This document shows positions 5,772-60,260 of a stretch of 64,000 nt of DNA, piece after piece. Every line of letters begins with the position of its first letter. The first letter of the stretch is position 1. The notes beneath the pieces were generated by a model. That model was not told where the DNA came from, made no database searches, and saw only the letters and a program-made list of their open reading frames with translations. This stretch comes from Luteitalea sp. TBR-22. Lineage in GTDB: Bacteria > Acidobacteriota > Vicinamibacteria > Vicinamibacterales > Vicinamibacteraceae. The DNA lies in NCBI RefSeq assembly GCF_016865485.1, contig NZ_AP024452.1:4672501-4736500 (forward strand). Direction: 5' to 3'. The position numbers and the translations under genes were made by a program.

Positions 5772-8700
5772 CGCGTCGGGAGGAGCCGGGCACCGGGCAC
5801 CGGGCGACGGGCACCGGGGAACCGCAGGAGGCAGGCACCGGGCAGCGGGCACCGGGCACCGGGGAACCGCAGGAGGCAGGCACCGGGCACCGGGCACCGG
5901 GCACCGGGGAACCGCAGGAGTCGCGCAGCGGGCACCGGGCGACGGGCACCGGGGCAGCGCCGGAGGTGGGCTCCGGGCAGCGGAGTCCGGGCACCGGGGC
6001 AGCTGCGGCCCATGGGCCACAGGTTGCCCGTGGCGGCACGTGGACGGCGACGCGCAAGGCGTTGCTGCCACTGCTGGTGGTGATGCTGGCGTGCCTGCTG
6101 GCGTTGTTCGAGCGCGAGTGGCGGCATGGCGAGGTGTTCTCGCCGGCCGACCTCGTGTTCCAGTTCTACCCGTGGGCGCACGACGCGCCGCGCACGCCCG
6201 CTGCCAACCCGACGCGTTCCGACGAGGCCTTCTATCACCAGCCGCTGATGGCCACGCACTTCGCGCGGCTGCGTGGCGGCGAGTGGCCCGACTTCGACGA
6301 CTCGCGACTGGCCGGCGTGCCGGCCTTCTTCCAGGGGCTCGACGTCGGGCGCGCCTTCTCGCCCTTCAGCCTGCCCTTCTACCTGCTGCCGGCCGAGGAC
6401 GCCGTCAACTGGTACGGTCCGCTGCGCTTGCTCGTCGCGGCGCTGGCGATGTGGCTGTTCCTGCGTGATCTCGGCGCCGGGGCGATCGCGGCGGCGCTGG
6501 CTGGCGTGGCATACGGGCTCAACGGCCACTTCCTCACGTGGCTCAGCGCGCCGATGCCGACCGTGGCCGCGTGGCTGCCGCTGGTGCTGCGGCAGGTGCG
6601 TCGGTGCGCGCGGGGCGGCGGCATCCGCGACGTGGCCGGACTCGCGCTCGCCACCGGCGCGCTGTGCCTGGGCGGCTACATGGCCACCACGCTCGTGTGC
6701 CTGTTCGGCGCCGGCGTCTACGGGCTCGTCGAGCTGTGGGCGGCGCGGGTGAACGACGAGGAGACCGTCGACCAAGGTCGACGGCTACACGAAGGCGAGG
6801 GTCGACGGCTACCCCGAGGCGAGGGTCGACGGCTACGCGGAGGAGAGGGTCGATGGCCACTCCGGCGCTTCGGCGCCCTGGTGGGCGGTGGCGTGCTCGG
6901 CCTCGCGGTCGGCGCAGTGGCCTGGTGGCCGATGGTCGCGGCCCTGCGCACCTCCCCGGCCGGCGCGCGGGTCGTCTCGGCGGAAGGTGCACCCTGGCCG
7001 AATCTCGCCACGCTCGCGCTGCCCGACTTCTGGGGCTCGCCGGTCCGCGGCAACTGGTGGCACCCGGACCCGTCGGCCAACTACCCGGAGCACGTCGCGT
7101 ACTTCGGCATCGTGGTCGCCATTGTCGCGGGGCTGGCGCTGGTCGCGCGGTTGCCGCGCCCCCTGTCGATCGTGCGGTGGACGTTCGTCGGACTGCTGGT
7201 CGTGGCCCTCACGCGCGCCTACGGCGGGTTCCCCGGGCGGTGGCTGCTGGTGTTGCCGGGACAGGCGCAATCCAATCCGTTCCGCTGGTACGCGCTGGCC
7301 GCCTGCGCGCTCGCCGTGCTGGCCGGGCTTGGCCTGCAGGCGTGGCTCACCGAAGCGGATGGTCGTCGACGGCTCCGCCAGCTCGCCGGCCCGACGCTGG
7401 TCGCCGGCGCGCTCGCGGCGGTCACGGCCGCCGCGCTGCTGGCGTTGCTGCCCGACCTTCGTGCGCGCAACCTGCAGGGATTCGAGCGTGCCCAACTGCT
7501 GCGGCTCGCGCTGATTGCGGGCGCCACGCTGCTGCCGGTGTACGTCGGCGCGTGGGTGCGCGATGCCCGCGTGCGCATGGCGTGCGGCCTCTGGCTGGTG
7601 GCGCTGGCGGGCGCCGACCTGGTGCAGGCGCATCGCGGCTTCAACCCGACGGTGCCGCGCGACCGCTACTACCCCGAGACGCCGACCCTCGCCTGGCTGC
7701 GCGAGGAAGCGGCGAGCAGCCGCGTCGCGCCCGTGGACACCGCCGGCGACCTCATCGAGGGCCACGTGTGGTCGATGTACGGCATCGATGTCGTCACGGG
7801 ATTCGACTACCACGGCGACCCCGCCTATCAGCGCTACATGCAGCTGGCGCAGCATCCGCCCGGTGAGTCGGTGGCTCCCCGACCGGCCGCGTGGGACTTC
7901 GTCGGCCTGCGGCGCGAGACGCTCGACCTCCGCATGCTCGGTGTGCTCGGCGCACGCTACATCGTCGCGCCGCCCCTCGACCTCACGCCGCGGGCCGGCG
8001 GCTACGTGCCCATCGGTCCGGTTGGCGACGGCACCGTGGTGACCCTCACCGTCCCCGTCCGGCACGATGGGCTTCGGGGCATCGACCTGCTGACCGCAAC
8101 CCACGGGCGAAGGAACAAGGGCCGATGGCATTACACGGTCACGCACGCCACCGGGGGCAGGCTCGCGGCGGGTGTGATCGAACAGGCGGCGCTGCCCAAC
8201 ACCGAGTGGTGGCGCCTCACGTGGACGCCGGTGCAGGCCTCGCGCAACAGCAGCATCACCGTGACGATCCGCGGCGAGGGCAGCGGCCCCGACGACAGCG
8301 CCACGATCATGGCCACAGCAACGCCGTCGGCGCTGGGCACGACCTTGACGATCGACGACCGGGCGGACCTCCGGACGCTGTGGTTCCGCACGTTCTCGAC
8401 CGCGCCGGACCGGTTCGGCGAGGCGCCACTGGTCCGCGCCGGAGACCTCAACGTCTACCGCAATCCGTACGCGCGGCCGCGGGCCTGGTTCGTGCTCGGT
8501 GACACCGTGGCGCCGGCGTCGAGCCACGCCGCCGCCATGCACGCCGGGCCGTTCGAGCCCGCTCGTCACGCCTGGGTCGACGGTCCGCCGTCGCACGAGC
8601 CGAGCGCAACCGCCCGCGTGACCTCGGTCAGCCTCGACGATGACACGCGGACCATCGGCGTCGACGCCCCCGACGGCGGACTGCTCGTGATTGGCGACCG

Positions 8701-17667: not shown

Positions 17668-17700
17668 GGGGTGGGGTCTTCGCCGTCGGCCTTCGGCCCT

Positions 17701-17868
17701 GGGCCGTGGGCCTTGGGCCTTGGGCCTTGGGCCTTGGGCCTTGGGCCTTGGGCCTTGGGCCGTGGGCCTTGGGCCGTGGGCCTTGGGCCGTGGGCCGTGG
17801 GCCTTCTACCTTGGGCCTTCCGAGCCCTGAGCCTCGAGCCCTGAGCCATGAGCCCTGAACCCTGAGCC
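17701..17868. repeat. 24-unit heptanucleotide array (GGGCCTT, then NNGAGCC)
   Basis: Seventeen units of GGGCCTT/GGGCCGT (one CTACCTT) run in phase into seven units of the form NNGAGCC or NNGAACC, with no break of the 7-bp register between the two types. The array occupies the smpB-pdxA gap and the last codons of pdxA. Confidence 0.92.
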
Positions 17869-20602: not shown

Positions 20603-20620
20603 GCCGTCGCCCGCTCCCCG

Positions 20621-20662
20621 ATTCCCGACTCCCGACTCCCGACTCCCGACTCCCGACTCCCG
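20621..20662. repeat. Heptanucleotide array (ACTCCCG x6)
   Basis: Six perfect or near-perfect ACTCCCG units (the first is ATTCCCG) in the 76-bp gap between the penicillin-binding protein and holB. Confidence 0.92.
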
Positions 20663-20666
20663 ACTT

Positions 20667-40316: not shown

Positions 40317-40415
40317 GCCTTCGAGCTGGGGGGCACGTGAGCGCTTCGGCTGGCAAGCCAGGCACCACGGGCGCAGCAGTCAGCGCAGTCCAGCGACTGG
40401 AACACAGCATATTGC

Positions 40416-49024: not shown

Positions 49025-49080
49025 GACCGGGCACCGGGCTCCGGGCACCGGGCTCCGGGCACCGGGCACCAGGCACCGGG
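49025..49080. repeat. Heptanucleotide array (CACCGGG x8)
   Basis: Eight units of CACCGGG/CTCCGGG (first GACCGGG, one CACCAGG) in exact 7-bp register, immediately upstream of gmhB. The same heptamer builds the in-frame array in the YfhO-like gene (5783-6006). Confidence 0.93.
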
Positions 49081-49092
49081 CGCCGGCATTCA

Positions 49093-49134
49093 CTGCCGAC
49101 TGCCGACTGCCTACTGCCTACTGCCTACTGCCGA
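49093..49134. repeat. Heptanucleotide array (CTGCCGA/CTGCCTA x6)
   Basis: Two CTGCCGA, three CTGCCTA and one CTGCCGA unit, perfect register, 12 bp from the preceding CACCGGG array. The two arrays lie side by side in the divergent gap between gmhB and the symporter. Confidence 0.93.
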
Positions 49135-49154
49135 CTGCGGCCTCGACATAGTGC

Positions 49155-59159: not shown

Positions 59160-59624
59160 ATGCTGTACTGGTTGATCGTCACCCTCTACGTGGTCGTCTG
59201 CCTGCTGTTGCTGCTGGCCGTCCTGCTGCAGCAGGGCAAGGGCGGTGACATCGCCTCCGCGTTCGGCGGTGGCGGCGGACAGGCCGCTTTCGGTGCCCGG
59301 CAGGGCGCCACGGTGCTCACCAAGGCGTCGGCGATCCTCGGCGGGCTGTTCATGGTCGGCGCGCTCGGTCTGGCGATCGTCGGCACGCGTGGTCCGAGCT
59401 CGGTGATGAGCGGCGTGCCGGGCGCCAAGCCGGCGCCAGTGACACCAGCGACCAAGGCGCCTGCGGCTCCGGCCAACCCGGCCGCCGCGGCCGCTCCGAC
59501 GCCTGCCGCCACGACCCCGAGCACGGGCGCGGCGACGTCGCAGCCTGCGGGCAGCGCGGCGCCTGCGACCGTCGCGCCGGCAGCCCCGGCCAAGGCTCCG
59601 GCACCCGAGCCGAAGAAGCAGTAG
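59160..59624 (+). CDS. secG: Preprotein translocase subunit SecG
   Basis: 154 residues. Two membrane helices: YWLIVTLYVVVCLLLLLAVLLQQG and LTKASAILGGLFMVGALGLAIV, joined by the SecG loop GKGGDIASAFGGGGGQAAFGA. It assists SecYE in protein export. The last ~75 residues are an Ala/Pro/Thr-rich tail, longer than in most SecG proteins and common in this phylum. It follows tpiA by 69 bp with its own -10-like box. Confidence 0.94.
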   Translation: MLYWLIVTLYVVVCLLLLLAVLLQQGKGGDIASAFGGGGGQAAFGARQGATVLTKASAILGGLFMVGALGLAIVGTRGPSSVMSGVPGAKPAPVTPATKAPAAPANPAAAAAPTPAATTPSTGAATSQPAGSAAPATVAPAAPAKAPAPEPKKQ

Positions 59625-59675
59625 CGGCGCGGCAGGCTTCGCGCCTGCGCGCTTCCCTCGCAGCCACGGACCTGC

Positions 59676-59681
59676 TATAGT
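59676..59681 (+). promoter_or_regulatory. -10 candidate TATAGT for tRNA-Leu
   Basis: TATAGT, about 46 bases before the tRNA, with TTCCCT 17 bp upstream. It sits in the loop and arm of a CCACGGA/TCCGTGG hairpin (59664-59687) that may instead terminate secG. Confidence 0.4.
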
Positions 59682-59727
59682 CCGTGGTTCTGTCGGGCGG
59701 GTTCACGCCCACCGACACCTACCACTT

Positions 59728-59814
59728 GCGGAAGTGGCGGAATTGGCAGACGCACCAGCTTGAGGGGCTGGCGGGAGCAATCTCGTGGGGGTTCGAGTCC
59801 CCCCTTCCGCACCA
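59728..59814 (+). tRNA. tRNA-Leu (anticodon GAG)
   Basis: 87 bases with encoded CCA and the long variable arm of class II tRNAs (TGGCGGGAGCAATCTCGTG region). Acceptor GCGGAAG pairs with CTTCCGC, anticodon stem CCAGC/GCTGG with loop TTGAGGG, and T-loop GGTTCGAGTCC. Reads CUC/CUU leucine codons. Its 3' end seeds the tandem repeats downstream. Confidence 0.96.
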
Positions 59815-60020
59815 TCACTCACGACGTTCGTTCTGGCGCGGCAGGCCGGCCGCAGGCCCTGGGCCCACGCCGCTGCGCGGCTCGGCCGCCGGGCTCGAGT
59901 CCCCCCTTCCGCACCATCACTCACGACGTTCGTTCTGGCGCGGCAGGCCGGCCGCAGGCCTTGGGCCCACGCCGCCGCGCGGCTCGGCCGTCGGGCTCGA
60001 GCCCCCCTTCCGAGCCGGTC
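59793..60020 (+). repeat. 102-bp tandem repeats seeded from the tRNA-Leu 3' end
   Basis: The tRNA 3' sequence from TCGAGTCCCCCCTTCCGC onward recurs at 59895 and, with changes (TCGAGCCCCCCTTCCGAG), at 59997: a period of exactly 102 bp. The unit carries the last 22 bases of the tRNA, ACGTTCGTTCTGGCGCGGC, and a GC-rich hairpin stretch. A shifted fragment (GTTCGTTCTGGCGC) follows at 60076. The layout resembles the rtT repeats behind E. coli tyrT. Confidence 0.93.
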
Positions 60021-60260
60021 GACGAGTCGAATGCCCTGCGCGAGCCTGCGAGTCCAGGGGCGCTCCCAGCACAGCGTTCGTTCTGGCGCATCGAAGCCAC
60101 TGAGTCAGCCGGCGTGCAGCGCCGCCATCGGCGCCCTTGCGTCTCGGCTCCGGTCGGCTCGCACTCCGACAACGTCCCGCACGCCCGGTCGGCAGCAGCG
60201 CGGGCAGGCTCCGACGTCCGGACGCCGTTCGCGCCGACGGCGCGGGCCTGCCTGAGCACG
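59815..60260. other. Gene-free 446-bp region after tRNA-Leu
   Basis: Holds the 102-bp repeats (to 60020), a displaced fragment of the repeat near 60076, and about 170 bp of GC-rich sequence with no recognised element before the AraC-type gene. No integrase gene is present. Confidence 0.7.

Follow-up and report, generated by a model that had tools for sequence, protein, structure and literature searches.

The window, that is the whole stretch of 64,000 nucleotides analysed here (G000:C1:4672501-4736500), lies within a single 6,468,984-bp contig of Luteitalea sp. TBR-22 (G000, the host genome), a member of the class Vicinamibacteria with a complete genome obtained from long and short reads (PMC8852301). 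All positions given without a genome handle refer to the window. tRNA-Leu(GAG) is located at 59728..59814 on the forward strand (ARAGORN; RF00005, 53.6 bits), downstream of tpiA and secG (names read off the reading frames). The last ~20 nt of this tRNA (59795-59814, forward strand) constitute the segment that is copied downstream, both in antisense and in sense.

Two 102-nt direct repeats at 59789-59890 and 59891-59992 share 96% identity, and Tandem Repeats Finder reports the region 59789-60012 with a period of 102, 2.2 copies and a score of 413. All features described in the following are on the forward strand. Unit 1 begins directly 3' of CCA with a short stem-loop spacer (P1, 59815..59833; assigned from the sequence and from the equivalent position in other units), followed by an antisense arm (A', 59834..59853) of the sequence TGGCGCGGCAGGCCGGCCGC, a partial complement of the tRNA-Leu(GAG) 3' end. 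A conserved hairpin (GCAGGC...GCTCGAG, 59851..59902) is matched by the covariance model R1 (see below) with a cmsearch E of 3.8e-6, or 2.8e-4 for the whole genome. Echo 1 (59891..59916), defined by repeat and echo comparison, is a sense copy of the tRNA 3' end through CCA. Unit 2 (59917..59992) is a duplicate of unit 1 over the 102-bp repeat, with its own stem-loop, antisense arm (59936-59955) and conserved hairpin (59955..59999; R1, cmsearch E 5.3e-5). Echo 2, the third copy (59993..60012; sequence and Tandem Repeats Finder), keeps GGGCTCGAGCCCCCCTTCCG and diverges before CCA, and a displaced 20-nt remnant of the unit start, 90% identical, is found at 60070..60089.

A previous, sequence-only reading of this DNA had described copies of the tRNA-Leu end at exactly 102-bp spacing, with a diverged third copy and a displaced fourth fragment, and the arrangement given above bears this out in full: the spacing is exact, and of the third and fourth copies only the two 20-nt segments are kept. 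That reading also held that the last 22 bases of the tRNA are copied; the copying is correct, the length is not, as the last ~26 bases are involved. Three features go beyond it, namely an antisense copy in each unit, the conserved hairpin, and similar units behind other tRNAs of the host. The sense echo of tRNA-Leu(GAG) attains an ungapped score of 23, far above chance; in none of the trailers of the remaining 43 host tRNAs does this tRNA end score higher than 10. The antisense arm of unit 1 is weak if taken alone (score 8, equalled by 2 of 43 other tRNA trailers), and ranks among the weaker arms of the module family described below.

The window contains further short-period repeats elsewhere. 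Tandem arrays of 7-bp units (GGCCTTG, GAGCCCT, CCCGACT, ACCGGGC, ACTGCCG) are located at 17688-17868, 20617-20665 and 49026-49138, and a tandem array of a 45-bp unit, made of CCGGGCA heptamers, is present in 4.9 copies at 5781-5999.

Trailer modules behind tRNA genes of the host

The trailer of each of the 44 tRNA genes of the host genome was checked for a copy of the 3' end of its own tRNA. About a dozen or more of these genes carry the trailer module, and more than half are devoid of a unit, which means that the module is not essential. Trailers with an own 3'-end copy include those of Leu(GAG), Lys(TTT), Arg(CCG), Arg(TCG), Gln(TTG), Gln(CTG), Ser(CGA), Ser(TGA), Pro(TGG; best copy in the second unit) and others, and the copies sit about 70-85 nt behind CCA. 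The common order is CCA, a stem-loop, the antisense copy of the tRNA 3' end and TTCAGGC, followed by a GC hairpin, GCTCGAATCC and a variable amount of the remaining tRNA end. The echo always comprises the T-loop/T-stem part, and often the acceptor part and CCA as well. Units are ~92-104 nt long, and the antisense segment of ~20 nt lies ~15-25 nt behind CCA. In a swap test with all 44 tRNAs, the total for the own echo (441) exceeds all of 20,000 permutations (maximum 398), and so does the total for the own antisense copy (316; maximum 295). Units may be multiplied head to tail, with five copies behind tRNA-Met (G000:5877224-5877646). Where tRNA genes are clustered, only the terminal one is followed by a unit (Val-Asp in G000 and G014, Arg-Lys in G044), a pattern that a 3'-end element would be expected to show.

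A second recurrent type of trailer, GCCTTCG...hairpin...CTTCGGCTNGGCAAGCC, also stands directly behind CCA and displays no visible kinship to the TTCAGGC module. It is found behind Val, Tyr, Ser(GCT), Gly(TCC), Thr, Leu(TAG) and other tRNAs in G000, G001 and G005 (L037, L045, L071, L201, L221, L178), and in the window at 40317-40360 behind tRNA-Val.

The antisense arm of the TTCAGGC module spans tRNA positions ~57-76 (G57-A76), and these boundaries are fixed across 20 tRNA species. The arm was evaluated in 37 units of 15 tRNA species, chosen only by the motif xTC(AGGC/GGTC) together with a CGAATCC-type motif, with the shared TTC excluded from scoring. Complementarity to the own tRNA amounts to 21.9, versus 12.3 to other tRNAs, and for the ten units of the host none of 100,000 permutations reaches the observed sum of own-tRNA complementarity. 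The signal is also obtained when no motif selection is applied (0, 0 and 1 of 5000 permutations in G000, G001 and G005, respectively), and under the same condition it is missing in 65 non-acidobacterial tRNAs (own 11.12 versus swapped 11.09). Where echo and tRNA differ, the arm agrees with the tRNA at 198 positions, with the echo at 6 and with neither at 16; in the strictly aligned part it sides with the tRNA 15 times and never with the echo. These counts speak against selection for a mini-helix between arm and echo, which we therefore reject, as the arm tracks the tRNA and not the echo. An example is tRNA-Ser(TGA) in the genomes G340 and G334, where T-stems of CCTGTCCC and CCCGTCCC are accompanied by correspondingly different arms, GGGACAGG and GAGACGGGG. 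Counted from the TGG end, mismatches of the arm concentrate at positions 7-8, 12-13 and 15-16, and nearly all of them are purine to pyrimidine or A.C. Only 4 of 178 substitutions yield wobble pairs (A>G 3, C>T 1). This does not speak for simple selection for RNA pairing, which would tolerate G.U, and it counts against the function proposed below.

A vertically inherited module family in Vicinamibacterales

The hairpin core TTCAGGC...GCTCGAA displays covariation in 31 aligned cores (0.223 versus 0.094 if shuffled, 0 of 500 shuffles reaching the observed value; slid controls at most 0.12). One G.U pair, adjoining an A.C mismatch, is invariant in all 31. Model R1 was built from cores without the Leu(GAG) units of the window, and it recovers both of these units in spite of their exclusion.

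Searches with two exact patterns return 8 and 13 matches in G000, 5 and 9 in G001 and very few elsewhere, and a reversed-pattern control gives essentially no matches. With R1, 49 of 149 genomes of Vicinamibacterales are matched, and 19 of the 20 matches in the host stand directly behind tRNAs. We inspected 50 loci, mostly loci of R1 matches from the family of the host and from other families of the order. A tRNA is present directly upstream of the module in 36 of them; among the remaining 14, at least 7 modules stand behind a severed tRNA 3' end and three look like chance matches in coding sequence. Taken together, the units cover 20 tRNA species, inclusive of tRNA-Sec, which has a near-perfect antisense arm (L300, L302).

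The similarity of cores behind orthologous tRNAs in different genomes of the genus is 0.743. Cores behind different tRNAs are no more alike within one genome (0.586) than between genomes (0.588), which indicates vertical descent of the module together with its tRNA; the same comparison of orthologs and paralogs rules out a transposition of modules between tRNAs. The Leu(GAG) repeat thus belongs, as a duplicated member, to a family of tRNA 3'-trailer modules that is handed down vertically in Vicinamibacterales. The sequence-only reading had taken it for a single independent case resembling the rtT repeats of E. coli; instead, it belongs to an order-wide, tRNA-specific family.

A spread of the module beyond the order was considered in a sample of 247 genomes of the phylum and rejected, as the R1 matches in 13 outside genomes read as chance matches in coding sequence, with the exception of G227. 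In this genome tRNA-Glu(TTC) is followed by three units with a perfect 20-nt arm (L314, G227:C1:3478219-3478544), the one convincing case outside the order, which is possibly convergent or transferred. Sense echoes at ~75-100 nt behind tRNA 3' ends, with no clear antisense arm, are seen in other phyla as well, namely in Flavobacterium, Agrococcus, Howlettbacteria, Chloroflexi, an alphaproteobacterium, Sumerlaea and a gemmatimonadete (L091, L109, L113, L131, L144, L145, L150).

Islands at tRNA-Leu(GAG) and rival origins of the module

The gene for tRNA-Leu(GAG) is a strong site for genomic islands in the order. In G059, 49 kb separate it from a copy of its positions 30-87, and this fragment is adjoined by an integrase gene, which is recognised by PHROGs (PHROG_1, E 1.4e-17) and missed by Pfam. 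In G041, an 8-kb stretch holds four 3' fragments of tRNA-Leu(GAG) (positions ~30-87), all on one strand (L247, G041:C150:29500-37552), apparently a run of island ends. These observations bear on an alternative raised by the sequence-only reading, by which repeated site-specific integration at this tRNA left the copies behind as scars. The suggested island and integrase do exist in a relative (G059), and the part of the suggestion by which such an island is bounded by the 102-bp repeat copies fails: island duplications at tRNA-Leu(GAG) measure 58-60 nt (positions 28/30-87) and are devoid of an antisense arm, versus an echo of 22-26 nt (~62-87) in the repeats, such that the bounds differ from those of island fragments in relatives. 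Moreover, the severed 3' end of tRNA-Leu(GAG) in G001 (positions 28-87) has taken its unit along, as have other severed ends, so the units are older than the islands that displaced them. Inspected by eye, the reading frames of the window behind the repeats include no recognisable integrase and read as an AraC-type regulator, an NAD-binding protein and a transporter. Integration would also leave the antisense arm and the conserved core unexplained. Since islands leave fragments of 58-60 nt and displace existing modules, the Leu(GAG) repeats are very probably not island scars, and this reading is largely refuted. Some echoes reach CCA and are then followed by attL-like sequence (judged by eye), and islands may use the echo as an integration target.

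The strongest rival to a functional module is neutral template switching, by quasi-palindrome correction or tandem inversion duplication, which would both make and keep an A-A'-A arrangement, with subsequent slippage between the sense copies. The order A-A'-A is what two template switches leave behind. As the tRNA is constrained, only the copies would change to match it, and no function would be necessary. The order of the segments, the tracking of the tRNA by A' and the frequent multiplication of whole units in tandem agree with such a process, as does the near-absence of wobble pairs, which is expected of DNA copying rather than of RNA pairing. On the other hand, the process does not account for boundaries fixed at G57-A76 in 20 tRNA species, for the conserved TTCAGGC core with its covarying stems and invariant G.U pair, for the preference of mismatches for positions 7-8, 12-13 and 15-16, or for the persistence of modules by descent across many genera. 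On balance, we consider neutral template switching conceivable, though rather improbable. Insertion of a small non-autonomous mobile element behind tRNAs, at a target of ~22 nt (T-loop to CCA) that is duplicated in the process, would fit with the two direct target copies flanking the unit, the strict location at tRNA 3' ends and the attL-like island sequence after several full echoes. At one of these loci, the tRNA-Gln(CTG) unit of G005, the echo of which is complete, a serine recombinase gene in the flank may be named in its favour as well. We deem such an element unlikely, given that cores resemble their orthologs and not co-resident units and that a clean insertion relative to an empty site was not observed in any pair; furthermore, an arm specific to each tRNA cannot be carried by a single mobile element. 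The recombinase in the flank of the G005 unit displays Resolvase and Recombinase domains (L257, G005:C82:19500-23700). An assembly artefact or a chance repeat may be dismissed for practical purposes: tandem repeats are hard to assemble, nothing else speaks for an artefact, and the module is present in independent assemblies of many species, in addition to the complete host genome from long and short reads (PMC8852301).

Proposed function and comparison with known systems

Based on this dataset, we hypothesize that the trailer module is a transcribed, structured 3'-end element that acts like rtT and governs how the transcript of its own tRNA is terminated, processed or matured, a proposal to which we assign about an even chance. 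As the module begins directly behind CCA, we infer that it is co-transcribed with the tRNA. The pre-tRNA would thus be transcribed beyond CCA and through the module, and the nascent transcript could adopt two folds: one with the cloverleaf and trailer hairpins, and another in which the trailer forms a long hairpin with the 3' strand of the tRNA, capturing it together with CCA. While the tRNA matures or its transcription terminates, the module would compete for this strand or guard it. Such capture would be the reason why the antisense arm stays matched to its own tRNA, and the module may be freed as a small RNA.

Computed folds are consistent with the capture of the 3' strand. The acceptor stem is lost from the minimum-energy fold in 97% of cases if a tRNA is folded with its own full unit, versus 48% with a unit belonging to the tRNA of another amino acid, and 13.7 versus 3.2 bases of the tRNA 3' strand pair with the trailer. 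At the Leu(GAG) locus of the window, the cloverleaf persists in the predicted fold, the stability of which does not exceed that of shuffles. Two other roles were considered and set aside. As for a replacement of intrinsic terminators by the unit, terminators are found behind 0 of 29 unit-bearing tRNAs versus 7 of 100 others, which is the right trend with counts that are too small. As for C-richness of the Rho type, C is only modestly raised over G (skew 0.116 versus 0.057).

A literature search of open-licence papers returned no description of the tRNA-trailer module. We tentatively suggest, as a possibility about which we are doubtful, that it may represent a new class of cis-acting RNA, a tRNA-specific antisense trailer, carried by many tRNA genes of the order, that can capture the 3' strand and CCA of its tRNA and acts as maturation switch or checkpoint, with rtT as a distant or convergent instance. 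rtT has been a curiosity of one E. coli locus until now. An order-wide family in another phylum makes self-regulation of tRNAs by bacterial trailers testable, and likewise a common mechanism for A-A'-A structures at tRNA ends. The module hints at an undescribed mode of tRNA finishing or control, and annotators gain a reason for partial tRNA copies other than island scars.

Four known systems are close enough for comparison. The attR fragments of islands with tyrosine integrases share with the module a copy of a tRNA 3' end near to or far from the intact gene; they differ in their length of 58-60 nt in the order Vicinamibacterales, and neither the antisense copy nor the conserved core stems from them. 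REP/BIME elements resemble the module as short conserved hairpins with covarying stems that sometimes occur in tandem. Unlike these, the module is tied to tRNA 3' ends, half of its sequence is tRNA-specific, and it is not dispersed in their manner, as the position of 19 of 20 host matches directly behind tRNAs demonstrates. The primer-binding site of LTR retroelements starts with TGG, complements the last ~18-20 nt of a tRNA and ends in the T loop. The antisense arm is similar in its TGG start and its complementarity to a tRNA, which we regard as analogy and not homology, and it differs by its location in cis, immediately downstream of the very tRNA gene that it complements.

The closest comparison is to the rtT (RttR) repeats behind tyrT-tyrV of E. 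coli, which had been proposed by the sequence-only reading and proves apt in layout. The tyrV repeats of E. coli K-12 (L327, 1287066-1287328) end in AATCCTTCCCCCACCACCA, 19 nt of the tRNA 3' end, and this sense copy is preceded by GGGGAAGGAT, a perfect 10-nt complement of the tyrosine tRNA end (shuffle p 0.0033 within the first 120 nt), with a GC hairpin after it. Both systems thus consist of tandem units behind a tRNA, each ending in a sense tRNA 3' end through CCA, and both have a GC hairpin and an antisense block between the tRNA end and the sense copy; in the module this block is family-wide, and at the unit of the window it is weak. rtT differs in its 178-nt units, its restriction to one tRNA locus and its 10-nt antisense block 60 nt behind CCA, the module in units of ~92-104 nt with ~20 nt of antisense, in the TTCAGGC...GCTCGAA core and in its occurrence at 20 tRNA species. 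The Rfam model RtT gives no match in 59600-60200 of the window up to an E of 5. As layout is common to both, and sequence and spacing are not, we describe the module as laid out like rtT, with no claim of family membership; by analogy, it may also work like it.
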